Assembly: GCF_964212655.1 (NCBI RefSeq)
Contig: NZ_OZ156465.1
Span: 3,720,001 to 3,784,000 of the forward strand
DNA length: 64,000 nt
DNA from: Candidatus Thiodiazotropha sp. LNASS1
GTDB lineage: Bacteria > Pseudomonadota > Gammaproteobacteria > Chromatiales > Chromatiaceae
Direction of reading: 5' to 3'
Shown here in pieces: positions 8,441 through 45,347 of the stretch. Every line of letters begins with the position of its first letter. Positions within the stretch are counted from its first letter, which is position 1. Both the position numbers and the translations under genes were made by a program. The notes under the pieces are model-generated. The model was given only the letters and a program-made list of their open reading frames with translations, was not told the origin of the DNA and ran no database searches.

Positions 8441-9565
8441 TTGAGTGATCCGAGTCTGCGGCGTATTCAGCTGATCTTCGGCGGTCTGCTGCTGCTGATA
8501 TTTGCCTGGACCTTCCTGCCGCAGATCGAGCAGTGGCTGGCGGGGCTTACCTCAGAACCGCGCCAGGTCACACCACGAGGCGATTTGGCGTCAGATGAGC
8601 AGGCCACTGTGGAGATATTTCAGCAGGCGAGCCCCTCGGTGGTCTATATCACCACCCTGCAACGGGTGCGTAATCCCTGGACACGGGATATCTTCAGCGT
8701 GCCTCAGGGGACCGGCTCGGGCTTCATCTGGGACGATCTCGGTCATCTGGTGACCAACCACCATGTGATCGCCGAGACAGCGCAGGCCAATGTACGACTC
8801 AACGATGGACGCAGTTATCAGGCAGTGCTGGTCGGTAGCAGTCCCGATCACGATCTGGCTGTGCTGCGGATCCGGGTCCCTTTTGACCGGCCGCCGCCGG
8901 TGCCCGTCGGCAGCAGCAGCGATCTGAAGGTAGGGCAGAAGGTGTTTGCCATCGGTAACCCCTTCGGGCTTGACTACACCCTGACAACCGGCGTGGTGTC
9001 GGCCCTCGACCGCTCTCTTCCCGAGAGTCGCAGCGGAGTTGCCGTCGATCATCTGATCCAGACCGATGCCGCTATTAATCCGGGTAACTCCGGGGGACCC
9101 CTGCTCGACAGTGCCGGCCGGTTGATTGGGATCAACACGGCCATCTACAGCCCTTCTGGGGCCTATGCCGGGATTGGTTTCGCAGTGCCTGTGGATACGG
9201 TAAACCGGGTGGTGCCGGAACTGATTGCCAAGGGGCGCTATGTAAGGCCATCACTTGGGATCTCGGTGGACGAGGATATCAACCGCACTATCCTGAGCAA
9301 ACTCGATCTGGAGGGTGTGCTGGTGTTACAGGTGACCGCCGGTACCGCGGCCGAGACAGCGGGTCTGCGCAGTACCTTTATCGATCCCAATGGGGATCTG
9401 GTGCTGGGTGATGTGATTCAGGCGATCGGTGGCCGTTCAGTGACCACGGTCAATGAACTGTTGGGTCGGTTGGACGATTTTCATATCGGCGATCAGACCA
9501 CCATCTCTATATGGCGCAACGGTGAAGAACTTGAATTGACAGTGGTGTTGCAGCAGGGCAAGTAG
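8441..9565 (+). CDS. Membrane-anchored HtrA/DegS-like S1C serine protease
   Basis: 374 residues: an N-terminal membrane anchor (about 11-27), a trypsin-like domain and one C-terminal PDZ domain, the architecture of DegS/AlgW. The catalytic triad is visible as H108 (TNHHVI), D138 (DHDLAVL) and S217 (NPGNSGGP). In such proteins the periplasmic protease cleaves RseA/MucA when the PDZ domain senses misfolded outer-membrane proteins, releasing sigma-E; applying that here is inference because no rseA is in view. The start is TTG: the nearby ATG at 8431 reads into a stop after five codons in its own frame. The gene ends 8 bases from the convergent bolA. Confidence 0.92.
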   Translation: MSDPSLRRIQLIFGGLLLLIFAWTFLPQIEQWLAGLTSEPRQVTPRGDLASDEQATVEIFQQASPSVVYITTLQRVRNPWTRDIFSVPQGTGSGFIWDDLGHLVTNHHVIAETAQANVRLNDGRSYQAVLVGSSPDHDLAVLRIRVPFDRPPPVPVGSSSDLKVGQKVFAIGNPFGLDYTLTTGVVSALDRSLPESRSGVAVDHLIQTDAAINPGNSGGPLLDSAGRLIGINTAIYSPSGAYAGIGFAVPVDTVNRVVPELIAKGRYVRPSLGISVDEDINRTILSKLDLEGVLVLQVTAGTAAETAGLRSTFIDPNGDLVLGDVIQAIGGRSVTTVNELLGRLDDFHIGDQTTISIWRNGEELELTVVLQQGK

Positions 9566-9573
9566 GCTCGAGT

Positions 9574-9894
9574 TCAACCCCGATTCGAACCTCCAAGGCA
9601 AGGTGGTGAGTCCGCTACCTTGCCTCCCTGGTCAAACCAGTCTTCCGGGGTTAGGGTGTGGAGCGCGAGGGCGTGTACACCCCCCTGCAACTCCTCCGTC
9701 AGCACTTTGTTGACTTGCCGATGACGGTTGATCAGCTTCTCTCCCTTGAAGGCTTCACTGACGAGCACAACCTTGAAATGGGATTCCGAGCCCTCCGGCA
9801 CATTGTGCATATGGCTTTCGTTGACAACCTCGAGATGCAGCGGTGCGAAAGCGGACGCCAGTTTAGTCTGTATAGTCTCCTGGATGGTTGTCAT
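9574..9894 (-). CDS. BolA-family protein
   Basis: 106 residues with the BolA signature: FAPLHLEVVNESHMHNVPEGSESHFKVVLVSEAF followed in the family by an RHRxVN element, present here as NRHRQVN. BolA proteins bind [2Fe-2S] clusters with monothiol glutaredoxins and influence cell shape and stress responses. His residues of the loop and the invariant His of RHR are kept. The C-terminus has an extra GGSNRG tail. It lies downstream of hda in the same direction, separated by 110 bases containing a hairpin (9969-9990). Confidence 0.93.
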   Translation of the reverse strand: MTTIQETIQTKLASAFAPLHLEVVNESHMHNVPEGSESHFKVVLVSEAFKGEKLINRHRQVNKVLTEELQGGVHALALHTLTPEDWFDQGGKVADSPPCLGGSNRG

Positions 9895-9968
9895 ATCACT
9901 ACCTCGGTCATCGTTATGTATGGAGAGTATGGTCAGGCTGGCCCTAGCCCTTAAGATGCAGCAGGGCC

Positions 9969-9990
9969 GGCTGTAACAGTGTTTACAGCC
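9969..9990. terminator. Hairpin between hda and bolA
   Basis: Eight-base perfect stem GGCTGTAA/TTACAGCC with a six-base loop. There is no T-tract on either side, so it may be a weak terminator or an mRNA stability element. Confidence 0.35.
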
Positions 9991-10004
9991 CCAGTATACT
10001 CCAT

Positions 10005-10685
10005 TTACAGTTTCAGGATTTCACGTACAAATGGTATGGTCAGCCGCCTTTGAGCGGCCAGGGATGCCTGGTCGAGCCGTTCAATGAGCAAGGTCAGAAA
10101 GTGGATGTCCCTGGGTGTACGCTGCAGCAGAAAGTTGGCGATCTCCACACTCATGGTCATACCCCTTCGCTCGGCATTGCTGATCAACAGCTCCAGGCGC
10201 TCGTCATCATTCAGGGGAAACAGTTGGTAACAGGGTCCCCAAGTCAGTCTTGAGGCCAGATCGGCGAGTTTCAGCGGCAGTTTTGCGGGTGGGCGGTCAC
10301 TGGTGACGATCAGTTTCGCTGCTCTCTCCCGTAGTTGATTGTAGAGATTGAAAATCGCCAATTCCCAATCGTCTTTACCCGCCAATACCTCAAGATCATC
10401 GAGGCAGACCATGGAGAATGCCTCGAGTCCCTCCAACATGGCCGGCTCAAGACCATGCTCGGATTTGAATGGCAGGTAAGCGGGTTGACCTTGCTCCTGT
10501 TGTGATTGATGGCAGCAGGCCTGGAGCAGATGGCTCTTGCCGCAGCCTGATGTACCCCATAAATAGATAAACGGGTCCGATCCACTGCGCAGGCGGGATA
10601 CCACCTCACCATTTCGTCCGCTGATGAAGCCGGAGAAATCAACGCTGGGTCGGATGCTGAGGCTTAATGGAAGCTGGGCTGGCAT
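10005..10685 (-). CDS. hda: DnaA regulatory inactivator Hda
   Basis: 226 residues, a DnaA-like AAA+ protein without a DNA-binding domain. The N-terminal AQLPLSLS is the clamp-binding motif used to dock on DNA polymerase III beta. Walker A is GTSGCGKS at 44-51, Walker B is MVCLDDLE, and the sensor region includes VTSDRPP. Hda with the sliding clamp stimulates DnaA-ATP hydrolysis after initiation. The gene starts 4 bases after the wrbA stop, so the two are co-transcribed. Confidence 0.95.
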   Translation of the reverse strand: MPAQLPLSLSIRPSVDFSGFISGRNGEVVSRLRSGSDPFIYLWGTSGCGKSHLLQACCHQSQQEQGQPAYLPFKSEHGLEPAMLEGLEAFSMVCLDDLEVLAGKDDWELAIFNLYNQLRERAAKLIVTSDRPPAKLPLKLADLASRLTWGPCYQLFPLNDDERLELLISNAERRGMTMSVEIANFLLQRTPRDIHFLTLLIERLDQASLAAQRRLTIPFVREILKL

Positions 10686-10689
10686 GGGT

Positions 10690-11304
<615 letters not shown>

Positions 11305-11339
11305 CTATACGGTCGGTATTTAATTCAGCCTGTTTCTGT

Positions 11340-11687
11340 TTATAGAATATCCAGGACCTTTTCAGGTGGCCTGCCGATTGCGGCCTTGCCGTTTTGAATG
11401 ACAATCGGGCGTTCAATCAGTTTGGGATTGGCGATCATTGCGTCAATCAACTGGTCCCGACTCAGGCTCGGGTTGTCCAGTTGCAGTGCCTTGTATTCCT
11501 TCTCCTTTGTACGCATAAGCTCCCGTGGCTCCAATCCGAGCATATCGAGAATCTGCCCAAGAGTGGCCTTGTCCGGTGGCGTTTTCAGATATTCAACCAC
11601 ATCAGGATCGATACCCTGGTCCTGTAACAGTTGCAGGGTCTGTCTGGATTTGCTGCAGCGCGGGTTGTGGTAGATCTCAACACTCAT
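11340..11687 (-). CDS. arsC: Arsenate reductase (glutaredoxin-type ArsC)
   Basis: 115 residues from the chosen start. The active-site HNPRCSKSR (catalytic Cys11) and the later LIERPIVI with the arginine that binds arsenate match the glutathione/glutaredoxin-linked ArsC family. The start at 11687 is preceded by a GAGG site; an upstream methionine at 11735 would add 16 unrelated residues. No arsenite pump lies nearby, and this gene commonly sits with wrbA and hda in gammaproteobacteria, so a role other than arsenic resistance is possible. Confidence 0.92.
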   Translation of the reverse strand: MSVEIYHNPRCSKSRQTLQLLQDQGIDPDVVEYLKTPPDKATLGQILDMLGLEPRELMRTKEKEYKALQLDNPSLSRDQLIDAMIANPKLIERPIVIQNGKAAIGRPPEKVLDIL

Positions 11688-11858
11688 AATCGATGACCTC
11701 CTGCTAGGCTTCAGTTGCGTCTGGCAATGCACCACCCTTCAATAAACCGGCGTGGCGGTTTGCCTCAAACTTAATTTGCCGTCATTGTATCCATACAGAG
11801 AGGATGGCTCCAGAAGCGGTTCCATAGAATCGATATTGAAAAAACGTGGAATTCAGTG

Positions 11859-13091
11859 ATGAACCAGAAAGATTTCAGTGATAGGGGTTTCTCGGCGATC
11901 CGGCATATCAACTCATTCCTGCGCCTGTGGCTGCACCATTTCAGCCATGATGGGGGAATTCAGCATGTGGCTGCATTGACCTATACCACACTTCTCTCAC
12001 TGGTGCCGTTGATGACGGTCATGTTTGCGCTGTTATCCATATTTCCCGTCTCTGACAGAATCTCGGAGCAGATCGAAAACTTCCTGTTTCAGAATTTCGT
12101 CCCCGCAGCCGGTGAAGCTGTACAGCAACACCTTAAAAATTTCAGTCAAAAGGCAGCTCAGCTTACCGGTGTTGGTTTTCTGTTTCTGATTTTGGTGGCG
12201 CTGCTGCTGATGAGTAACATCGACAAGGCGTTCAACACTATATGGCATGTCAGGCGAAAACGTTCGCCGCTTGCCAAGTTTACCGTCTATTGGGCAATTC
12301 TCTCGCTGGGGCCGATATTGATCGCGATTAGCGTCGGTGTGACCTCTTATCTGGTCTCGATTCCCTTCTTCAGTGAGGCTGAAGCAGTGGTGATGGTGCG
12401 CACAAGGTTGTTGAGTATGATGCCGGTCATGATTTCGGCACTCGCCTTTACGTTGTTATATGCCCTGGTCCCCAACCGGTCTGTGATGCTGCGCCATGCA
12501 CTCGCAGGAGGAATCATAGCTGCACTTCTGTTTGAGGCTACAAAAAGGGGGTTTGCACTCTATATCACGACCTTTCCTACCTATGAGGCGATCTATGGAG
12601 CGCTTGCCGTAATTCCCATCTTTCTAATCTGGGTTTATCTGTCCTGGCTGGTTACCCTGTTGGGGGCGGAGTTCAGCTATTGTCTGGGTATCTACCGTCA
12701 TGACTGGCGTGAAAGAATGGGGCAGCGTGGGGACAGGTTTTTACTTGCGGTGAAAATACTCCACCAGCTACGCGAAGCTCAACACCAGGGTGTGTCGACC
12801 ACAACTCGCCAGTTGCAGGGGCAATTGCAGCATGCTACCGAAGAACAATTGGACTCTATACTCCTCTCATTGCAGAGAGCCCGTCTGGTATTGCATACGG
12901 ATGATAAGGGTTGGGTGTTGGCGAGAGACCTAAGGGAAGTCACTGTGGCCGAGTTTTACAATTCCGATGCCTATGTGTTGCCGGATGACAGCCAATTGAA
13001 AATGGCCCCGGATACCCTGGGGAAATTGATTACAAAGATCAATTGCGATTTACAACAGACAATGAATTTGCCATTGGACGATTTGCTATAG
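11859..13091 (+). CDS. YihY/BrkB-family inner-membrane protein
   Basis: 410 residues. The first 280 contain six membrane helices with the YihY/BrkB signatures HVAALTYTTLLSLVPLMTV and IYGALAVIPIFLIWVYLSW. The C-terminal part (about 290-410) is cytoplasmic and winged-helix-like, as in the long form of this family. Older annotations call it ribonuclease BN, which is now considered wrong for E. coli YihY. The start is ATG 11859, one codon after an in-frame GTG. Function unknown; a transporter-like role is often proposed. Confidence 0.9.
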   Translation: MNQKDFSDRGFSAIRHINSFLRLWLHHFSHDGGIQHVAALTYTTLLSLVPLMTVMFALLSIFPVSDRISEQIENFLFQNFVPAAGEAVQQHLKNFSQKAAQLTGVGFLFLILVALLLMSNIDKAFNTIWHVRRKRSPLAKFTVYWAILSLGPILIAISVGVTSYLVSIPFFSEAEAVVMVRTRLLSMMPVMISALAFTLLYALVPNRSVMLRHALAGGIIAALLFEATKRGFALYITTFPTYEAIYGALAVIPIFLIWVYLSWLVTLLGAEFSYCLGIYRHDWRERMGQRGDRFLLAVKILHQLREAQHQGVSTTTRQLQGQLQHATEEQLDSILLSLQRARLVLHTDDKGWVLARDLREVTVAEFYNSDAYVLPDDSQLKMAPDTLGKLITKINCDLQQTMNLPLDDLL

Positions 13092-13220
13092 CATTCTTTA
13101 AAAGTGGGAATAAACCCCCTATAGTGTGATCTGTAGGTAGATTGCACTTCAATATGGCTTGTATGTCTGCCGTTGCATTGATCGACCTATTCCGCAGCTT
13201 TCGGCAGGCATGCAGTCCGC

Positions 13221-14876
13221 ATGTCAAATCAATGGATGATATGTCCCATGACAGTACACACAATTGTCAGCGAAGAAGGTCCGTTTTATGGGGATGGCGT
13301 TACCACAACATTCCCGTTTTCCATCGCACTGTTCGATTCCGGGCAACTCAGGGTAACCAAAATTACCAGAGTGGGTAATGAAGAAGTCTTGACGGAGGGA
13401 GTTGACTATACGGTTAATCTGAACGCGGATCAGCAACTCAATCCAGGCGGGGAGATCGGGTGGACAGGTATAAACGGCCCATTACTCAGTGATGAGGCGT
13501 TGCATATCAAGCGTGTGGTCGATCTGTTGCAACTGACGGATCTTCAAAGTCTGGGAAGTTACGCACCCGCGGAGATCGAGCGCTCCCTGGATAAATTAAC
13601 CATGATCGCGCAACAGTTGAGCGATGATGTGGCAACTTTAAAGAAGTCACTTGCCGTAACTGAGACCGTTAAATTCGCCGTCTTAGGGGCCAGTGAGACA
13701 GTTTTTCCGTGGCGACAGACATGGGTGGACCTTATCGATGACGCATTCAAATCCGAAGGTCTTAAGGTTGATTTCTTTCATTCCGGGACCGGCGCCCTGA
13801 CACATCATCTGGCGATGACGCAACCCGATGCTTTAACCGGAGAGACCCGGGCCGAGCTGACGAGTGAAAGCGATCCTGACGTGATCATAATGGAATTGGG
13901 GATAAATGACGCCATACTTTCCTTCGGAAATCGATCGCAGACTGAGATGATTGCAGACGCCAGGGCGTTGTATGGGTTTTTTAGGGATAACAATCCACGA
14001 GCATTGATTCTCTATTCCAGGCTGGTGCCCTATGATGAGGAAAAGCATCGTCAGGTTGCGGTAGAGAACATAAAGAAAAAATATTGTGTGCCGTTTCTGC
14101 ATCAGACCTCGGGAATGCCGGGTGAAGAGAACTTATATACCTCCGAGCTTGCCGAAGTCGACAAGATAATTTCACCCGAGATGCAGGGTAGGCTCGATAA
14201 CTGGCGAACCTTGGATGCCGAGTGTCAAGCGTTGGCGGATGTCTCAATCGATACTAGCTATTTTCAAGTGGCGAGATTGGGTCTGCTTTCTCATGATCGT
14301 TTTCATCCTACATCACTGGGCCATTACTTTATCATGAGTCGTGTCTGGGATGCTTTTCAGAGAGATGCAACGATCAGGGCGGCAGTTCCCGAACTTGGCA
14401 GGATCAGAGTTCTGGGAGACTTCACTAACTTTGAACTGTTATGGAGGTCTGTGCTCAAAGCGGACGCGGAACGGGATGGTTACGTCGTTGACCCGACCTT
14501 TCTGTCGGGATTTGAATATCCGATGTGGATGAACATCTACGGTGATACCAATCTGATCTACTACATAGAATATTGGGCAAATCAACAGCGACCTACAATC
14601 GATGTGACGAATACTATCGATAAATCCGGCAACAACGTGTTTCTGGTGATGATGAATGATCTATGGCCGAACCTTGAGATCGAGACTAAGTTATGGATCG
14701 AGGGTGATAGTGAACCCTCTGTATGGAACAGGGCTTCGCCCAGACAATTAACATCTTCAACAGGCGGTCACATCAGTTCCCAGCAGAATATCAACCTGCC
14801 CATTGGCAATTGGAAAATTAAGTATAAAGTCGGCAACGATGTATTTGGACCGTTTAGCGTTGCCATTACCGGTTGA
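13221..14876 (+). CDS. Phage tail-fibre-type N-terminus fused to SGNH hydrolase
   Basis: 551 residues in three parts. Residues about 15-140 match the pattern of phage tail-fibre/tailspike N-terminal domains: a YGDGVTTTFPF opening, a GVDYTVNL turn, ALHIKRVVDLLQLTDLQ and a coiled APAEIERSLDKLTMIAQQL ending. Residues about 150-390 form an SGNH/GDSL hydrolase: nucleophile block VLGAS (Ser158), GIND (Asn229) and DRFH (Asp359, His362). Residues about 400-551 form a probable beta-rich domain. Such chimeras usually deacetylate or cleave host surface glycans from a virion or tailocin. Here no other phage gene is adjacent. The start could also be ATG 13248. Neither start has a strong ribosome site. Composition is slightly more AT-rich than its neighbours. 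Confidence 0.75.
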   Translation: MSNQWMICPMTVHTIVSEEGPFYGDGVTTTFPFSIALFDSGQLRVTKITRVGNEEVLTEGVDYTVNLNADQQLNPGGEIGWTGINGPLLSDEALHIKRVVDLLQLTDLQSLGSYAPAEIERSLDKLTMIAQQLSDDVATLKKSLAVTETVKFAVLGASETVFPWRQTWVDLIDDAFKSEGLKVDFFHSGTGALTHHLAMTQPDALTGETRAELTSESDPDVIIMELGINDAILSFGNRSQTEMIADARALYGFFRDNNPRALILYSRLVPYDEEKHRQVAVENIKKKYCVPFLHQTSGMPGEENLYTSELAEVDKIISPEMQGRLDNWRTLDAECQALADVSIDTSYFQVARLGLLSHDRFHPTSLGHYFIMSRVWDAFQRDATIRAAVPELGRIRVLGDFTNFELLWRSVLKADAERDGYVVDPTFLSGFEYPMWMNIYGDTNLIYYIEYWANQQRPTIDVTNTIDKSGNNVFLVMMNDLWPNLEIETKLWIEGDSEPSVWNRASPRQLTSSTGGHISSQQNINLPIGNWKIKYKVGNDVFGPFSVAITG

Positions 14877-14917
14877 TGCACCAGGACCGATTGGATTAGT
14901 GTTAACAGGCCCTGGGA

Positions 14918-16531
14918 TTAGGCGTTCTTGATTCGGTATCTTTCGAATCTTGATGTCGTCTCAAGCAGTTGTAAAGGTGTTACGCTGGGTGCCGGGATCA
15001 TCTCTTCAACACGGTATTCATGGCCGATGACGAAGAAATTTTTCGGCACGATAAGAGAACTGCGGTGAGTATGACCCTGATCGATAAAGATGGCCGCTCG
15101 ATCCTTTAACGGTTGCGATGTTTGTTGTTGGTTTGTCCGGCGCAAGGTAATAGGTTCGATCTTCCCGAGAATAAACTGTATCCCTATCTCCAACAGATTA
15201 TCGTTACAGTTCAATGCACGCTTTATAATGCCGATTTTCCACTCATTCTCATGTCTTTGCTGGTGAGTGGAAAACAATACCAACTCACCGACAAGGGGCA
15301 TATTGACGCTGCTTTTTGAGACCTTGAGCGCCACACCGGAACGGCTTTGATTTGTGCGTATCGCCGTGAATTGATGTGTGGTACTTGAATCTTCTCCACG
15401 TTGAATGCCGATGAATTGAGTCATATCGATCTCTTCATCATCGGTCTGCGACGACACGCTTTTTCCTGTGAGGTAAGCGTATATAGCGTCAATACCAATC
15501 CATATCATAACCTGTCCGGCGGTGGAGTGACGCTCACTGTCGCGTTTCAGGCGGATGTGCCAGGACTTCAGCATTCGCGCCATCAGATTAGTGGATTCCT
15601 GCATGCTCAATTTCACCAGGGCATCCGGTTTTCCCTGTTCAGATCTTTCCATCTGCCTGAGTTTCTGGTGCAGCCGTTTACTGACAGGAGTGAGATCGAA
15701 CAGGGTAAAACGGGGTTGTGTCAGATTGTTCAGACACTCAGGTTGGAAAAGGTAGGGAGGTACCTCGCCCAGTCGGTCGATGACATAGTGTCCAGTAGAT
15801 TCCGTCTCTTGGGTTGGGGCCGAGATAAGAGCATTTCCAGCCAGTGTATTCAGATACTCGAAACACAACCGCGGCTCACTCTCCTGCAGATGGCAGGGGT
15901 CGAGCAGTAACAACAGGAGAAAACGACTGTACTGATGGGATATGGTGGCATATTCCGGTTGTTCCTGATCCGCGTCTTCGATTTGATTGTGTTGGATCTT
16001 TTGCTCTTCAGCGTAGGTCACCAAACGCGTTACATCCCGGTACACTCTCCCGCTTCTGCAGTCGAAATCCTCGCATGCAAGCAGGTACTCCTGGACGAAA
16101 TACTTGACCGCATAGTAGATCGTATGGCTGAGGCGTTGCAGGTTTTTCCTACTGGCCTTGTTGCTGACACATTCATTGGCGATATGGCAATGTCCATAGG
16201 CCATCTCCAGTATTACCTGGCGTATCAGGTGAACTGGTGCTTCCGACTTACGCTGCGCATGACTATGGGCCAGTCTTATGCAGGGCGTTGTGTAGACCTC
16301 CATCAACTCATCACGCTTTTTGACCTGTCCCGGATACCGGTTGAGACGGCTTAGACTGGTGAGTACCGTTTCCGCCAACTGTGTTTGGTTGGCAAAGGGT
16401 AATGCCGTGGCCCATTGGCGAAGCAAGGCAGGATCGGTTTCCACCAGGGGATTTTCAAACGGATCCTTTTGAGGCACAAAAAACAGTACCTGGGAGGGTG
16501 ATGCGCTCCTGTGGGAGAAAAAATCAAACAT
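14918..16531 (-). CDS. Large cytoplasmic protein with PilZ-like C-terminal domain
   Basis: 537 residues, no signal peptide or membrane helix. Residues 1-390 are helical and unrecognised. From about 395 a PilZ-like region is suggested by FTAIRTNQSRSGVALKVSK (an RxxxR then N/DxSxxG-like element), then LVGELVLF and a WKIGIIKRALN...LEIGIQ strand pattern. If real it would bind c-di-GMP, which fits the many GGDEF proteins in the window. The start is uncertain: ATG 16531 opens on MFDFFSHRS; an in-frame GTG at 16573 would add 14 residues. Convergent with the tail-fibre/SGNH gene. Confidence 0.7.
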   Translation of the reverse strand: MFDFFSHRSASPSQVLFFVPQKDPFENPLVETDPALLRQWATALPFANQTQLAETVLTSLSRLNRYPGQVKKRDELMEVYTTPCIRLAHSHAQRKSEAPVHLIRQVILEMAYGHCHIANECVSNKASRKNLQRLSHTIYYAVKYFVQEYLLACEDFDCRSGRVYRDVTRLVTYAEEQKIQHNQIEDADQEQPEYATISHQYSRFLLLLLLDPCHLQESEPRLCFEYLNTLAGNALISAPTQETESTGHYVIDRLGEVPPYLFQPECLNNLTQPRFTLFDLTPVSKRLHQKLRQMERSEQGKPDALVKLSMQESTNLMARMLKSWHIRLKRDSERHSTAGQVMIWIGIDAIYAYLTGKSVSSQTDDEEIDMTQFIGIQRGEDSSTTHQFTAIRTNQSRSGVALKVSKSSVNMPLVGELVLFSTHQQRHENEWKIGIIKRALNCNDNLLEIGIQFILGKIEPITLRRTNQQQTSQPLKDRAAIFIDQGHTHRSSLIVPKNFFVIGHEYRVEEMIPAPSVTPLQLLETTSRFERYRIKNA

Positions 16532-16939
16532 GGTGATCTGAATGAGTGTTCCTTCGAGCCCTTGCTCAGACACCCACTATATCATCCCGGTTGAGACGCG
16601 GAATAGTCCTCATCTGGTTAATTTTATGGTGCCCTTGATCAAGGATGCCTTCAGGAGAGGTGGAGGTTGTTGATATGTTTTAAATTAATTCAATAAATAC
16701 AGTTGCATAGGTTGCGTTATAGGGAAAATGTTCTGGTGAAAAAGGGCATTCAATGAGATGAGATCCGGAATACCGGTCAAATGAGGGGGGTTTTACGATG
16801 GATTCCGTAATATTGTGGTTTTCATGAATTGCACTTCCTGGAATTTACCCTGAGAATGCAGGTCAGAGAAAATTACCGGGTCCTGTGTGTTGTATTCGAG
16901 CCCGGCAGGCCGGTCATTGATACAAATATGGAGAGTAAT
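16532..16939. other. Divergent intergenic region, 16.5-16.9 kb
   Basis: About 400 AT-rich bases between the PilZ-like gene (leftward) and the thioredoxin gene (rightward). An open frame reaches upstream of the thioredoxin start from 16829, but it lacks a ribosome site and would bury the signal peptide, so I treat it as untranslated. No repeat or RNA gene seen. Confidence 0.5.
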
Positions 16940-17422
16940 ATGTCCCTGATGAGTCCGTCGCTGCGTGCGCTGGGTATCTTTGCGTTATCGCTTTTATCGA
17001 TCACAGCAACGGCGGAAACGGTGGATTTCGAATTGCAGGGATTGGATGGTAAAAGTTATCGCCTCTCTGACTACAGGGGTAAATGGGTATTGGTGAATTA
17101 TTGGGCGACCTGGTGTCCTCCCTGCCGTGAGGAACTGCCTGAACTGGAAGTTTTTCATAATAATCATAAGGATAAGGATGCGGTCGTCCTGGGTGTAGCC
17201 ATGGAACGTATCGAAAAGCCACGATTGAAGGCCTTCGTCGATGAACAGTTTCTCAGCTATCCCATTCTCATGGCTGAGCCGGCGGCACGGACAGAGCTGG
17301 GAAGGGTGCCGGGTCTGCCCACTTCCTTTCTGGTCAGTCCTGAAGGTGAACTGGTCGCCCGTCAGGTGGGACCACTGACCATGGAAGATATCGAGAGTTT
17401 TATCGATACCATGCGCGAGTAA
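16940..17422 (+). CDS. Periplasmic TlpA/ResA-type thioredoxin-like protein
   Basis: 160 residues: a signal peptide ending near ATATAETV, then a thioredoxin fold with the active site WATWCPPCREELPEL. The cis-proline region is GLPTSFLVSPEG. TlpA/ResA proteins reduce disulfides in the periplasm, for example for cytochrome c or copper-site maturation. The start at 16940 is chosen because GGAG stands six bases upstream. It heads a rightward run with another thioredoxin-fold protein 11 bases downstream, so the pair likely acts together. Confidence 0.92.
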   Translation: MSLMSPSLRALGIFALSLLSITATAETVDFELQGLDGKSYRLSDYRGKWVLVNYWATWCPPCREELPELEVFHNNHKDKDAVVLGVAMERIEKPRLKAFVDEQFLSYPILMAEPAARTELGRVPGLPTSFLVSPEGELVARQVGPLTMEDIESFIDTMRE

Positions 17423-17433
17423 GGAGAAAACAG

Positions 17434-17973
17434 ATGTCACGGTATCTCATTTCAATTGCCTTACTGCTGCTTCCCTTCGGTGATATTGCCGCCGCAACAC
17501 GGGATCCGGGAGACTATTTTTTCGACCAGTCGTTAGGTAATTTCAGTGACGAACTGGAGATGGCGAGGGATGAGGGCAAAAAGGGGGTGCTCATCATGTT
17601 TGAGATGGACGAGTGCCCGTTCTGCCACCGAATGAAGACCCGGGTGCTCAATCAGGTCCAGGTTCAGGACTATTTCAAACAACATTTTCTCATCTATACG
17701 GTAGACATCGAAGGAGATGTTGAGATCGCTGACTTTCGCGGCAACACCATGAAGGAGAAGGATTTTGCATTCAAGCAATTCAGAGTCAGGGCAACCCCGG
17801 TATTTGGTTTTTTCGATCTGGAAGGGAAGATGATCGCCCGGTTTACCGGGGCTACGAATGATGCCCAGGAGTTTATGTGGTTGGGAGAGTTCGTCGTCAA
17901 TGATCACTACAAGACGACCAATTTTTCGCGTTACAAGCGTGAAAAGAGAAGAACGCTCCGCAAAGTTAGATAG
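17434..17973 (+). CDS. Periplasmic thioredoxin-fold protein with CPFC motif (SoxW-like)
   Basis: 179 residues: a signal peptide (about 1-21, ending GDIAAATR), then a thioredoxin fold with MDECPFCHRMKTRVLNQ, the active site of the SoxW/DUF255-like group, and a cis-proline segment RATPVFGFFD. The tail is strongly basic (RYKREKRRTLRKVR). An AAGGAG site precedes the ATG. Proteins of this type reduce the SoxY carrier or similar thiol partners in sulfur oxidisers; assigning that role here is inference because no sox genes are in the window. Confidence 0.85.
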   Translation: MSRYLISIALLLLPFGDIAAATRDPGDYFFDQSLGNFSDELEMARDEGKKGVLIMFEMDECPFCHRMKTRVLNQVQVQDYFKQHFLIYTVDIEGDVEIADFRGNTMKEKDFAFKQFRVRATPVFGFFDLEGKMIARFTGATNDAQEFMWLGEFVVNDHYKTTNFSRYKREKRRTLRKVR

Positions 17974-17976
17974 GTA

Positions 17977-19311
17977 ATGTTTTATTGCATGCTGATGAGT
18001 GGGAAAATTCCTTCGCCACCTATGCGAATGGTGAAATCACTGCTGCTCATGCCATCTTTGTTGCTAGGCCAACTTGCTCATGCATTGGAACCTCTACCCT
18101 CACCGCTGACCCTGCAATACGCCTTGGAACTGGCCGATCACGCACATCCCGAACGAAGCTTGATAGAAGCCGATCTTGCACAAGCCCGGGCTTTCGCTGA
18201 ACAGGTTGCCGCAGATGACGATGCCCATCTCGCATTGACTGCGGAGTTGCGAGTCATCGATCCGTCTGACATTGCAGCAGACGATTCCAGAAACGACAGC
18301 CTGGCCCGACTCAATCTGAGCAAACTGCTCTATGACTTCGGTCGCACCAGTCACGCGCAAGAGGCGGCCGAGGCTGGATTGACGTCCCGGCAATGGCAAT
18401 TACTCCAGGTCAGACAGCAGCGCAGACTGGATGTAATGGCAAGATTTTTCGATGTCCTGCTGGCTGACCTGGAGTTTGCCAGAGATAACGAAGCACTCGC
18501 CATCGACTACATACGCTTCGACAGGGCGCGTACGAAAAATGAGTTGGGAAAGGTATCCGATATTGACATGTTGGAGCTCGAATCCACCTATCAGCAGTCG
18601 CTACGCAAGATGACGGCAAGTCAGAACAGGCAACGCATCACTCGCTCGCAGCTGGCGATCAGCTTGAATCGGCCGCTGGATCTGCCGGCCGAATTGGAGT
18701 CTCCGCAGTTTGGCTCATTGGGGGAACTGCCTGAGATAGAGACACTGGTTGAAAAGGCGTTGCGGGAGAATCCGAAAATCAGGGCCCTACAAGCCGAGCT
18801 GCGGGCGGCGAAGAAACAGCTCCAGGCCAGTGAGGCGGAAGACAACCCGGTATTGCGCGCCGAATTGGAGGCGGCTGCATACCAACGTAGGCTGGGGGGA
18901 CGCAATCCTTTGACTGCGGCCCTGGTGATCGAACTACCGCTCTATCAAGGTGATCGGGTTGCATCGGATATTGCGGTACAGCGGGCGCATGCAGATAGGA
19001 AACAGGCCGAACTGGCAGCTTATGAACTCGTTTTGCGGCAACAACTCTTGGACTTCTGGATGGAGCTGCAGAGGTTGAAGGTTGAACGCCAGGGATTGCG
19101 GGTGACAGAAGATTTTCGCGATCTCTCCCTGGATCGTAGCCGCACCCTGTATGAACTGGATATGGCGGCCGATTTGGGTGATTCCATGTCCCAGATTGCC
19201 GATATACAACTGCAGCGGGCAAGAAATGATTATCAGATCCATTTGACCCATGCCCGTATCAAAGCGCTTACAGGCGATCTTTTGATGTCGCCTGAAAATA
19301 AGAGTGAGTGA
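17977..19311 (+). CDS. TolC-family outer membrane efflux protein
   Basis: 444 residues with the duplicated TolC/OEP fold: two long coiled-coil halves, each opening with alternating Ala/Leu/Glu helices (SLIEADLAQARAFAEQ; NPKIRALQAELRAAKKQL), and the NRPLDLP and IELPLYQGDR beta-strand parts. A signal peptide is predicted after an in-frame methionine at 18025, so translation may start at 17977 or further in. The gene follows the CPFC protein by 3 bases and overlaps the region of the adaptor's start, so the set is one transcript. It would form the outer-membrane channel for the adaptor. Confidence 0.88.
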   Translation: MFYCMLMSGKIPSPPMRMVKSLLLMPSLLLGQLAHALEPLPSPLTLQYALELADHAHPERSLIEADLAQARAFAEQVAADDDAHLALTAELRVIDPSDIAADDSRNDSLARLNLSKLLYDFGRTSHAQEAAEAGLTSRQWQLLQVRQQRRLDVMARFFDVLLADLEFARDNEALAIDYIRFDRARTKNELGKVSDIDMLELESTYQQSLRKMTASQNRQRITRSQLAISLNRPLDLPAELESPQFGSLGELPEIETLVEKALRENPKIRALQAELRAAKKQLQASEAEDNPVLRAELEAAAYQRRLGGRNPLTAALVIELPLYQGDRVASDIAVQRAHADRKQAELAAYELVLRQQLLDFWMELQRLKVERQGLRVTEDFRDLSLDRSRTLYELDMAADLGDSMSQIADIQLQRARNDYQIHLTHARIKALTGDLLMSPENKSE

Positions 19312-42318: not shown

Positions 42319-43260
42319 ATGCCGAGAGTATTTATACTAAGTATCCTCTTGCTGGCATCGCACCTGCTCAATCAGGCCATGGCCCTGCAACCCCTGCAGC
42401 CATTGCCTCAAGAAGTGGCCTATGACGAAGGCAAGGCACGATTGGGCAAGCGCCTGTTTTTCGATACCCTGCTCTCCAAGGACCGCAGTGTGTCCTGCGC
42501 CACCTGCCACGACCCCGATCACGGCGGCGCCGAGCCACGCCAGGTCTCCATTGGAATCGGAAACCAGAAGGGCACACTGAATGCGCCGACGGTTTACAAT
42601 TCATATTACAATTTCAGGCAGTTCTGGGATGGCCGCGCCCTTGACCTGAAAGAACAGGCAGCCGGTCCTCTGCACAACCCTATAGAAATGGCTATGACGG
42701 CTGAGGAGGTAGTGCAGCGTCTCAACGATCATGCCGAATATCCGCTGCTTTTTTCACGCGTCTATCATCAGTCTCGCGTCCGGTTCGAAGATGTCACCGA
42801 TGCCATCGCTGAGTTCGAGAAGGCCCTGTTTACACCGGACAGCCCTTTCGATCGCTACCTGAGAGGTGAAATTGAACTGGCGGCAGATGAAAAAGAGGGT
42901 TATCTGTTGTTCAGAACCATGGGTTGCGTCACCTGCCATAACGGTATCAATCTGGGTGGGAATTCGTATCAATATATCGGTGCGGTCAATCCGCTTGAGA
43001 AAGACGTTGAAGCCGGTGACCTCTATGCCCGTACCGGCGATCCCTTCGATCGCAACCGGTTCAAGGTGCCGAGCCTGCGCAATATTGAACTCACCTCACC
43101 CTATCTGCACGACGGTAGCAAAAGCACTCTGGGCGAAACGCTGGCGACCATGGCCTTCCACAATCTGGGGTTTGATCTCACAGCGGAGGAGAACCGTCAG
43201 CTGACCGCTTTTCTCAAGACGCTGACCGGCAAACGCCCTGCGATACTGGAGTCGCCGTGA
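42319..43260 (+). CDS. Dihaem cytochrome c peroxidase (CcpA/MauG-like)
   Basis: 313 residues: signal peptide (about 1-22), then two haem-c motifs, CATCH (60-64) in the low-potential domain and CVTCH (203-207) in the second domain. Family signatures RLGKRLFFDTLLSKDRS, LNAPTVYNSYYN, FWDGRALDLKEQAAGP and VPSLRNIELTSPYLHDGS are present. It reduces hydrogen peroxide to water in the periplasm with electrons from a c-type cytochrome. ATG 42319 is preceded by CGGAAA. Its stop overlaps the GTG start of the GGDEF-EAL gene. Confidence 0.92.
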   Translation: MPRVFILSILLLASHLLNQAMALQPLQPLPQEVAYDEGKARLGKRLFFDTLLSKDRSVSCATCHDPDHGGAEPRQVSIGIGNQKGTLNAPTVYNSYYNFRQFWDGRALDLKEQAAGPLHNPIEMAMTAEEVVQRLNDHAEYPLLFSRVYHQSRVRFEDVTDAIAEFEKALFTPDSPFDRYLRGEIELAADEKEGYLLFRTMGCVTCHNGINLGGNSYQYIGAVNPLEKDVEAGDLYARTGDPFDRNRFKVPSLRNIELTSPYLHDGSKSTLGETLATMAFHNLGFDLTAEENRQLTAFLKTLTGKRPAILESP

Positions 43261-45347
43261 GGCTTCAATTCAAGATCTATGTGGCATTGATTCTCGCCCT
43301 GCTGGCGGGATTGACCTTTTTTTATTCCAAGTCACGAACTGATGCGCTGCTGTCAGGTCATAATCAGGTTATCCATAATCTGGCAGAGATGGAGCTGATG
43401 AACAAGCGTGTGGACGAAGAGATATGGAGTACCGCCTACCGTCTCTATCACAATTATGATGAAGTGCACCGACTGATAAAGGAGATCAGGAATTTGGGGG
43501 GGGAGATACATGTCCTGGATTTCCTCGCCTCAGCGGAATACCGACCTTTCTGGGAAAAGCTAGACAAATTCAACCAGCTGTTGGAACAAAAGGAACAGGA
43601 CATCATCCGTTACGCCACACTCAATTCCCTGGTCAAGAACTCGGTCTCCCATGTACCGGGACTGACGCATCGCTACATAAAGAATTTCGTCAATGAAGAC
43701 CAGACGTACGTAGAGGACCTGTCGCAAGCGACCTCCCTCGTGTTTCTTGCCAGCAACGCTATGGATGCCGAGCTGCTGACCGGATTCAAGGAGGTGCTGC
43801 AAAGGCTGCAAGACAAGGAATTTGCCGATCCGGATAGAAAACGATTCAATCGGGTGTTTCTGTCGCATGCCCGAATCGTCGACAGATACCTGGCTCAGTA
43901 CGTACCGGTTTTTACGGGGATTCTCGATATCCCCATCGATAAAGCCCTGCATGGCGCCAGTGAGCTGTTTCTCGATATCAGTAAACGGCAGGCAGAGAGT
44001 GTCCATCTTTGGTCACTGTTGATCACGCTTGCTTTCATCGGATCCCTGGGCATGATCGTCGTTTTTTTGATCAACCTGGACAGGCGGCACAGGGAATTGT
44101 CGGATTTACATACCGCACTTGAGCAGGGTGCGACCATCGACCGTCTGACCGGTTTACAAAACCGTTTCGCTTTCGAGCGTTCACTCAAGACTGACACTGA
44201 GCAGGCGCTTATCATTATCAACATCGATGGCTTCAAACATATTAATAACTTTTACGGTCATGAGGCCGGAGACAGTATTCTTGTGCAGATGGCAGCGGTT
44301 TTACAGTCTGCCCTAGCCCCGTTGGGGCATGGATTGTTCCGCCTCGGCGGTGACGATTTCGGTGTTCTTGTCGAAGGTGGAACGGATGATCCGGAAATGC
44401 TCGCTCGTAAACTGATACGGACAATGGAGCATGCGCTTTTTAGCTTTGACGACAATCCGGTACCGATCAATGTGACTGCCGGCCTGTCAACAGTCGCCCC
44501 GCTACTGGAAACGGCCAATCTGACACTCAACCAGATCAAGCGTACCCGGATGAAGTTTCTCGCCTACGATCCTGATGTGGGTCAAAAGGCCAGGATGAGA
44601 GACAACCTGAGTATGATCCGCGTATTGAAAGAGGCGATCAACAATGACGCGGTCATACCCTATTTCATGCCGATCATGAATAATCGCAGTCAGTGTATTG
44701 AGCATTACGAATGTCTGGTTCGCGTCATGACCGAGGATGGTACGCTTCTACTGCCCGATGAATTTCTGTCTGTTGCGAGAGAGGGGCGTCTGAATGCGGA
44801 TCTGACACGGATCATGATTGAAAAGAGCTTTAAGGCATTTGCCGATACTGAGCTTGAGTTTTCGGTCAATCTTGCAATTGAGGATATTCTTGATCCGGAG
44901 GTGACAGAATTCCTGTTCCATCGACTTGAACAGTCACCCGGTATAGGACGGCGTCTGACTCTGGAGATACTGGAGAGTGAAGAGGTCAAAAGCTACGAAG
45001 CGATTGCGGATTTCGTCAGACGCTCGGCAGACTACGAATGCAGGATAGCTATCGATGATTTCGGCAGCGGTTACTCAAACCTGCGCCATCTATTGGAACT
45101 GAATATTCATACGCTGAAAATCGATGGATCGCTGATACGGAACATCATGGAGGATCCGCATGCCGCGCAGGCCATTCAGGCAATCACCACGCTTGCGCAT
45201 AAAATCGGCATCACTTCGATAGTTGCAGAATATGTATGCTCAAAAGAGATCCAGGCTCGGGTCAGCGAAATGGGGATTGAGTATTCACAGGGATTCCATA
45301 TCGGCCAGCCCCTGCCTCATTTACTTGAGCTGTCGAAGCTGGATTGA
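43257..45347 (+). CDS. DAHL-like sensor with GGDEF and EAL domains
   Basis: 696 residues: a membrane helix (about 6-24), a large helical periplasmic sensor (about 25-255) with a DALLSGHNQVIHNLAE pattern like the DAHL domain, a second helix (about 258-278), then GGDEF and EAL. The GGDEF motif is LGGDDF and lacks the RxxD inhibitory site. The EAL motif is ECLVR, and other phosphodiesterase residues are kept: NLAIED, LEILES, DDFGSGYS, LKIDGS, AEYV and QGFHIG. It likely degrades c-di-GMP. The GTG start overlaps the peroxidase stop (GTGA). An eight-G run lies in the coding sequence at 43496-43503. Confidence 0.9.
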   Translation: MRLQFKIYVALILALLAGLTFFYSKSRTDALLSGHNQVIHNLAEMELMNKRVDEEIWSTAYRLYHNYDEVHRLIKEIRNLGGEIHVLDFLASAEYRPFWEKLDKFNQLLEQKEQDIIRYATLNSLVKNSVSHVPGLTHRYIKNFVNEDQTYVEDLSQATSLVFLASNAMDAELLTGFKEVLQRLQDKEFADPDRKRFNRVFLSHARIVDRYLAQYVPVFTGILDIPIDKALHGASELFLDISKRQAESVHLWSLLITLAFIGSLGMIVVFLINLDRRHRELSDLHTALEQGATIDRLTGLQNRFAFERSLKTDTEQALIIINIDGFKHINNFYGHEAGDSILVQMAAVLQSALAPLGHGLFRLGGDDFGVLVEGGTDDPEMLARKLIRTMEHALFSFDDNPVPINVTAGLSTVAPLLETANLTLNQIKRTRMKFLAYDPDVGQKARMRDNLSMIRVLKEAINNDAVIPYFMPIMNNRSQCIEHYECLVRVMTEDGTLLLPDEFLSVAREGRLNADLTRIMIEKSFKAFADTELEFSVNLAIEDILDPEVTEFLFHRLEQSPGIGRRLTLEILESEEVKSYEAIADFVRRSADYECRIAIDDFGSGYSNLRHLLELNIHTLKIDGSLIRNIMEDPHAAQAIQAITTLAHKIGITSIVAEYVCSKEIQARVSEMGIEYSQGFHIGQPLPHLLELSKLD
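43496..43503 (+). repeat. G8 homopolymer inside the GGDEF-EAL coding sequence
   Basis: Eight G encode part of Leu-Gly-Gly-Glu at about residues 80-83. The surrounding AATTTGGGGGGGG repeats the run upstream of the peroxidase gene (42285-42292). Loss or gain of one G would truncate the protein early. Confidence 0.75.

Follow-up and report, generated by a model that had tools for sequence, protein, structure and literature searches.

A stand-alone gene on the chromosome of Candidatus Thiodiazotropha sp. LNASS1 is a podovirus-type tail-spike gene, whose product combines an N-terminal virion-anchoring (adaptor) domain, an SGNH domain and a C-terminal β-rich domain. In one part of the genus the spike has diverged together with its chromosomal site, under purifying selection over its whole length. 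The best explanation overall, plausible if somewhat short of probable, is that a spike of this type, either stranded in an ancestral chromosome or copied there, was kept as useful to the bacterium, acting in trans. The gene lies in a stretch of 64,000 nucleotides, the window (bases 3720001-3784000 of one 4,746,093-base contig), and was compared across a genus sample of 22 genomes of Candidatus Thiodiazotropha, symbionts of lucinid clams. The genome that holds the window is referred to as the home genome.

The open reading frame 13221-14876 (plus strand, 551 codons) is present as the sequence-only reading gave it, but its start is most likely the ATG at 13248, Met10 in the earlier numbering, rather than 13221. 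This correction follows from the phage profiles, which mostly align from that codon (the best pairs residues 10-137 of the earlier numbering with profile positions 1-121), from the homologues in stretches L020, L021 and L089, which open with MTVHT, and from an in-frame stop two codons upstream in L020 and L021. The parts of the gene and its neighbours are given in Table 1. The YihY identity proposed earlier for the upstream neighbour was borne out, while nothing in Pfam backed the 'PilZ-like' label of the downstream one. The sequence CTATAGTGTGA is found upstream of the spike in G163, G015 and G020 as well; the promoter scan was no richer than shuffles (5 found versus a mean of 3.7).

Table 1. 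Features of the spike gene, its neighbours and partial giant-protein genes; positions are those of the window unless another stretch or contig is named.
Feature	Position	Strand	Basis or remark
Orphan tail-spike gene, probable coding region	13248..14876	+	542 aa
N-terminal virion-anchoring (adaptor) domain, residues 1-135	13248..13652	+	phrog_1640, Dpo31, G163 podovirus spike
SGNH esterase domain (predicted)	13653..14411	+	PF13472 below cut-off; AlphaFold2 model; Foldseek and VIA-align matches
Catalytic Ser codon, Ser149 (earlier numbering Ser158)	13692..13694	+	Invariant in 14/14 rows of alignment A6; DNA read
Block III Asn codon, Asn220 (earlier 229)	13905..13907	+	Thr or Ile in 8/14 rows of A6
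Catalytic block V codons, Asp350...His353 (earlier 359/362)	14295..14306	+	Invariant in 14/14 rows of A6
C-terminal β-rich domain	14541..14873	+	Secondary structure of model; aligned in 14/14 rows of A6
Possible own promoter, TTTAAA-17-TATAGT	13097..13125	+	Weak
Upstream core neighbour, YihY/BrkB family	11856..13091	+	PF03631, E 2.9e-62; in 22/22 genus genomes
Downstream convergent core neighbour, 551 aa	14918..16573	-	No Pfam match at E <= 1
Partial phrog_9880 proteins	L126 9212-18662; L129 up to 7399; G016:C21:31339-34749		

The sequence-only reading took the N-terminus for a phage tail-fibre domain, and the profile search that it proposed agrees. At E <= 4.6e-6, approximately residues 10-137 (earlier numbering) are matched by 12 PHROG families, of which seven carry a tail-protein annotation; phrog_1640 is the best (E 1.8e-17), and the solved tail spike Dpo31 also matches the adaptor (E 1.4e-16). 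Dpo31, from Cobetia phage Carin1 (28lx, 8ck1), has an N-terminal domain homologous to that of the window protein, with an adaptor identity of about 37-39%; this domain, D1, is reported to fix Dpo31 to the tail of the phage, and Dpo31 carries a β-helix depolymerase (PMC13317679). The window protein instead carries an SGNH domain, and its gene stands alone on a chromosome whereas Dpo31 is encoded by a phage. The tail protein Bbp9 of BPP-1, a Bordetella phage with a diversity-generating retroelement, has a related adaptor, but its C-terminal part differs, Bbp9 has no Pfam match, and it sits in full phage context, unlike the window gene. Among phage records 72 match the adaptor, none with 80% coverage, and none of the 40 matches listed extends past residue 183. 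Within the home genome the adaptor type is unique to the window gene. Four further genomes in a sample of 369 from the class, all of other genera, carry the adaptor. One of these, G408, has a giant virion protein upstream of the adaptor gene; in the short flanks examined of the other three this protein was not seen, and further orphan spikes are therefore possible. The window protein has the N-terminal virion-anchoring domain of podovirus tail spikes, but its gene, flanked by core genes, does not directly follow a giant virion protein, and five queries from the C-terminal parts of giant proteins found no match in window bases 9001-19000.

Assignment of the second domain to the SGNH/GDSL hydrolases rests on predicted fold and catalytic triad; the domain is a putative esterase. 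Pfam scores are sub-threshold, with Lipase_GDSL_2 (PF13472) at 24.8 bits against a cut-off of 32.9 and PF00657 at 18.9 against 23.6. An AlphaFold2 model containing the domain (pLDDT 74.6) matched the peptidoglycan O-acetylesterase 4k3u_A (Z 11.9, rmsd 3.5, 189 aligned) and TesA (5tif; Z 11.7, rmsd 2.8, 176 aligned), and the best Foldseek match was a family 3 carbohydrate esterase, 5b5s (E 2.6e-5). The carbohydrate and acetyl esterase matches from Foldseek and VIA-align span model residues 5-257, and the viral structural matches include tail spikes of phages Possum, PP99 and PPWS4. A first model, covering the full-length protein and built from 10 rows, had a poor pLDDT of 49.1 and was set aside. 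The Ser158, Asn229, Asp359 and His362 named by the sequence-only reading are all in place. The Ser, Asp and His of the triad are invariant in the 14 rows of A6, and the block III Asn is kept in six, including the window protein, with Thr in seven and Ile in one. These replacements, together with the lack of a Pfam match in the related spike of a G163 phage described below, indicate that catalysis may not be the trait that is kept everywhere. Receptor-binding proteins of Klebsiella prophages often contain SGNH domains, and two such proteins have been shown to be active acetyl esterases (PMC13123978). Those proteins and the deacetylating spikes of Pectobacterium phages Possum and PP99 are, as here, SGNH-headed tail spikes, but they sit in prophages or phages whereas the window spike stands alone.

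The SGNH head is present in 15 of the 22 genus genomes. Wider searches found it in 15 of 210 genomes of the order and two of 369 of the class, every one from the same genus. A search of genome_contigs, in which the use of just two peptide patterns means that distant relatives could be missed, returned 12 SGNH relatives, 11 in lucinid-symbiont records and one in a 'Chromatiales' MAG. Scans of IMG/VR found no full-length relative, one scan giving four matches to approximately the adaptor (residues 1-155 at most), and a plasmid search that used the SGNH portion of the spike from the G163 phage yielded no relative. Two Vibrio phage matches to that spike seemed to extend into the SGNH part, but pairwise comparison assigned them to adaptor similarity; beyond the adaptor there is weak continuation in one protein and none in the other, and neither has a Pfam match. 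The head is apparently restricted to the genus, as no outside sequence relative was found in the searches made.

Both flanking genes adjoin the insertion point, site A, in all 22 genus genomes. The spike lies between them in seven (home, G163, G009, G015, G020, G003 and G001) and site A is empty in the other 15. The core flanks, with other phage genes not found beside the spike, uphold the earlier view that it lies outside any prophage. The comparison of related strains suggested at that time shows retention in place in part of the genus, not throughout it. Conservation in one place in many bacteria without phage homologues would speak against the sequence-only reading; seven genomes do keep the spike in place, but a full-length phage homologue exists. 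The spike of the home genome is 82, 95 and 70% identical to those of G015, G009 and G003, respectively, compared with 86, 97 and 76% for the YihY protein and 81, 96 and 70% for the 551-aa neighbour. Among the site A copies the SGNH tree approximates that of four flanking genes except in the order of home, G163 and G009, where the SGNH tree joins home and G009 first (support 0.87) and the flank tree joins home and G163 first. Three genomes (G011, G005 and G019) fall inside the carrier clade yet lack the spike at site A. One gain followed by losses is the simplest reading of this pattern; two gains are possible.

For the home genome against G163, G009 and G015, respectively, dN/dS is 0.11, 0.19 and 0.11 over the whole gene and 0.07, 0.19 and 0.14 over the adaptor, compared with 0.04-0.19 for the flanking genes; the G009 values cover the 448 codons ahead of a frame break. 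Purifying selection is supported in these comparisons by Fisher p values from 0.012 down to 2e-64. Two copies are damaged, the G009 spike being broken into two frames and the G001 spike having its adaptor separated from its head by a stretch of ~0.3 kb. This insert (L021 9961-10255) is G+C-rich and has no Rfam match at E <= 0.1, and a 67-base piece of it recurs in G014 (L103) at 88% identity. The spikes of G003, G001 and G006 have an extra C-terminal domain of ~155-160 aa (L020 10868-11341, L022 8607-9068) that is absent from the window protein.

The SGNH head also occurs at two other loci, B and C, in a further eight genomes. At locus B, in six genomes, the head gene is adjoined in every case by a homologue of the window reading frame 43257-45347. 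The N-terminus of all six proteins matches tail-fibre family phrog_8469, which is unrelated to the site A adaptor and absent from the home genome. All six reading frames are intact (500 aa), and over 15 pairs dN/dS is 0.07-0.23 in the adaptor and 0.06-0.15 in the head. Locus C comprises two genes, in G006 and G019, the latter without an adaptor. The G006 N-terminus is 51% identical to the locus B one of G002, and tail fibres in 15 phage records match it. Among these records, eight are of Burkholderia phages, such as BcepIL02, DC1 and BcepMigl, which are Bcep22-like podoviruses, and two are of Pseudomonas phage Itty13, where the protein is annotated once as a baseplate wedge subunit. Stand-alone spikes have therefore been retained more than once in the genus, virion plugs included, and so are neither simple prophage debris nor ordinary exported esterases.

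The sequence-only reading had offered, among other options, a recruited envelope glycan esterase. In its fuller form a phage-derived esterase would serve the bacterium's own surface or the animal host, being freed by lysis or another route, deacylating glycans and using its adaptor solely as an oligomer holder. The closeness of the predicted fold to carbohydrate and peptidoglycan O-acetyl esterases is consistent with such a role, as are the lower dN of head than adaptor in 14 of the 15 locus B pairs and the retention in G019 of a head without its adaptor. Recruitment of this kind is possible but unlikely, however, as no signal peptide was seen on inspection, leaving export unexplained, the virion adaptor is also under purifying selection, and the block III Asn has been lost from all six locus B rows and from G019.

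The type of phage from which the orphan derives is illustrated by G163, a genome labelled as the same species as the home genome, which has a second, distant spike copy on contig C16. This contig (5,934 bp) and C46 (42,012 bp) share an exact 249-bp overlap at both ends and therefore form a circle of ~47.4 kb, which encodes an integrase, a head-tail adaptor, a major head protein, two tail proteins and an endolysin-like protein. Here the spike directly follows a giant virion protein (phrog_9880), separated from it by 66 bp, an order that is also found in BPP-1 (bbp10, bbp9), a Manatee Spring podovirus and Carin1. In their C-terminal parts the giant proteins of these phages are related to the G163 one, with E values of 2e-21 (BPP-1), 8e-21 (Manatee Spring) and 4e-69 (Carin1, 47% identical). 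Over 549 aligned columns the spike of the G163 phage shares 41% identity with the window protein, rising to 52% in the adaptor. As it has no Pfam match of its own at E <= 0.01, its SGNH nature rests on homology to the window protein. The circle junction holds the 3' end of a tRNA-Met, with an exact 34-base match in 21 of the 22 genus genomes, and this tRNA-Met is the probable attachment site. The chromosomal tRNA-Met of G163 runs on into ordinary sequence, so the phage DNA is free, present in some cells only, or from a neighbour cell. The podovirus is a temperate one of BPP-1 type, although its MAG contigs could also come from another cell; it shows the source type of the orphan, not its direct parent. 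The home genome has no match to phrog_9880, the BPP-1-type giant virion protein family, and an adaptor-compatible phage is therefore documented for the sister genome G163 only.

Several observations touch on this phage and its attachment site. Directly after the spike the podovirus encodes a 181-aa protein (L089 2807-3352, minus strand) that by inspection has an apparent signal peptide and CxxCH motifs; it resembles a haem c protein, an unusual podovirus cargo, and has no PHROG match. The distance from the tRNA-Met to the orphan spike, which may be chance, is ~15.6 kb in both G015 and G020, ~22 kb in G003, ~23 kb in G001 and ~27 kb in G009. In the home genome it is 55.6 kb, including an island of ~35 kb (~3677650-3712970, L161-L162) upstream of the window and directly behind the tRNA-Met, which by inspection contains several CxxCH cytochrome-like genes and is absent from this place in G020, G015 and G163. 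Three genomes (G002, G007 and G016) encode a protein of ~1,290-1,350 codons with part of the phrog_9880 family (E 2.8e-243 to 1.1e-238). The G002 gene has neighbours that, from their reading frames, resemble an integrase, a primase and a terminase small subunit, which may point to a phage satellite. In G016 the tRNA-Met end recurs in three exact copies on the same strand (G016:C7:325119, 358633 and 367933), with a sheath gene between the first two, which suggests that two elements integrated at this tRNA.

The occurrence of the spikes at three loci, with two adaptor types, within a single genus, and the position of the probable attachment site 15.6 kb from the site A spike in G015 and G020, could reflect repeated gain, in which phages deposit spikes at hot spots and selection is exerted in the phages, not in the bacterium. 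This is quite improbable given that the site A spikes diverge at about the rate of their flanks and with nearly the same branching, while the sole full-length phage copy recovered is much more distant from the home spike (41% identity) than the other site A copies are (70-99%). Of the options offered earlier, a cargo fibre moved between tail modules comes nearest, in that a gene derived from phages stands by itself here, but there is no sign of movement between tail modules.

There is little more to be said for a neutral remnant, an old spike in slow decay whose low dN/dS would record mostly past constraint, and we consider it improbable. The broken copies in G009 and G001, and the empty sites of G011, G005 and G019 inside the carrier clade, would be accounted for by such decay. 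Against it, even the closest pair shows a deficit of nonsynonymous changes (6 versus 15 synonymous; fewer than expected, p 2e-6), and the dN/dS of 0.11-0.19, similar to that of the core neighbours, is not the relaxed selection of a prophage remnant, despite two broken relatives. In addition, all six locus B copies are intact, and intergenic DNA of the home genome, G003 and G001 has no tblastx match (E <= 0.01) to eight phage stretches. The 'decayed prophage remnant' of the sequence-only reading is thus disfavoured by low dN/dS, vertical inheritance and the failure to find other phage genes. A role as the spike of an unseen particle whose genes lie elsewhere in the genome (a tailocin, gene-transfer agent or injection system) would explain why the docking domain is kept, and sheath genes occur in 7 of the 22 genus genomes, including G001 and G003, but this is very unlikely since five of the seven site A carriers (home, G163, G009, G015 and G020) have no sheath and the site A adaptor is of podovirus type; for the home genome a tailocin or injection-system fibre was rejected, as the contractile sheath PF04984 was not found there.

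These considerations return us to a spike retained for action in trans, the single gene having presumably remained behind in an ancestor's chromosome, or been copied there, and then been kept for its usefulness to the bacterium. Selection on two unrelated docking domains, as estimated from the sequences, is the strongest hint that docking matters, and the lack of a contractile sheath in the five site A carriers points to infecting podoviruses as the natural partners. On both grounds action in trans on the progeny virions of such phages is the mechanism that we tentatively prefer. The spike protein would stay in the cytoplasm, as suggested by inspection, which showed no signal peptide. When an adaptor-compatible podovirus infects, host-made spikes, their docking domain presumably intact, would compete for spike sockets on the progeny, and virions would leave with a wrong or inactive receptor-binding enzyme, damping the epidemic. 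The SGNH head, as in other phages, would remove acyl groups from the symbiont's surface polysaccharide. Counting against this explanation are the broken copies in G009 and G001, the gaps in the carrier clade (G011, G005 and G019), the adaptor-less copy of G019, the sheath genes of G001 and G003, the restriction of a documented compatible phage to the sister genome, and the replacements of the block III Asn. Host- or prophage-encoded spoiling of the tails of invading phages is described as a defence for Tab (PMC10884400) and Tai (PMC11364771), which show that such a principle can work. These systems are work-alikes only, being different proteins that are not tail spikes, and the window spike is not claimed as a member. 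The symbiont of Lucinoma kazani is reported to have a small number of defence systems, to lack CRISPR-Cas and to carry prophages that are partial and inactive (PMC11171427). A more far-reaching view, which is doubtful, is that bacteria keep host-controlled stand-alone spikes whose plugs match the attacking podoviruses, a defence by swapping of receptor-binding proteins in which the plug follows the prevailing phage. The genus-bound head would then be constant and the plug exchanged, being of BPP-1 type at site A and taken from a different tail-fibre type in G006 and at locus B.

SGNH tail spikes are already known from phages and prophages. New here are that the gene stands alone on a chromosome and has long been retained, that a second plug exists and that the SGNH head is apparently confined to the genus; the literature searched held neither a lone chromosomal spike with a selected docking domain nor a second lineage with an unrelated one. 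A by-product of the analysis is a temperate podovirus of uncultured clam symbionts, together with its probable attachment site. If it is true that the spike protein enters virions in trans, hosts would be able to edit the receptor binding of their phages.
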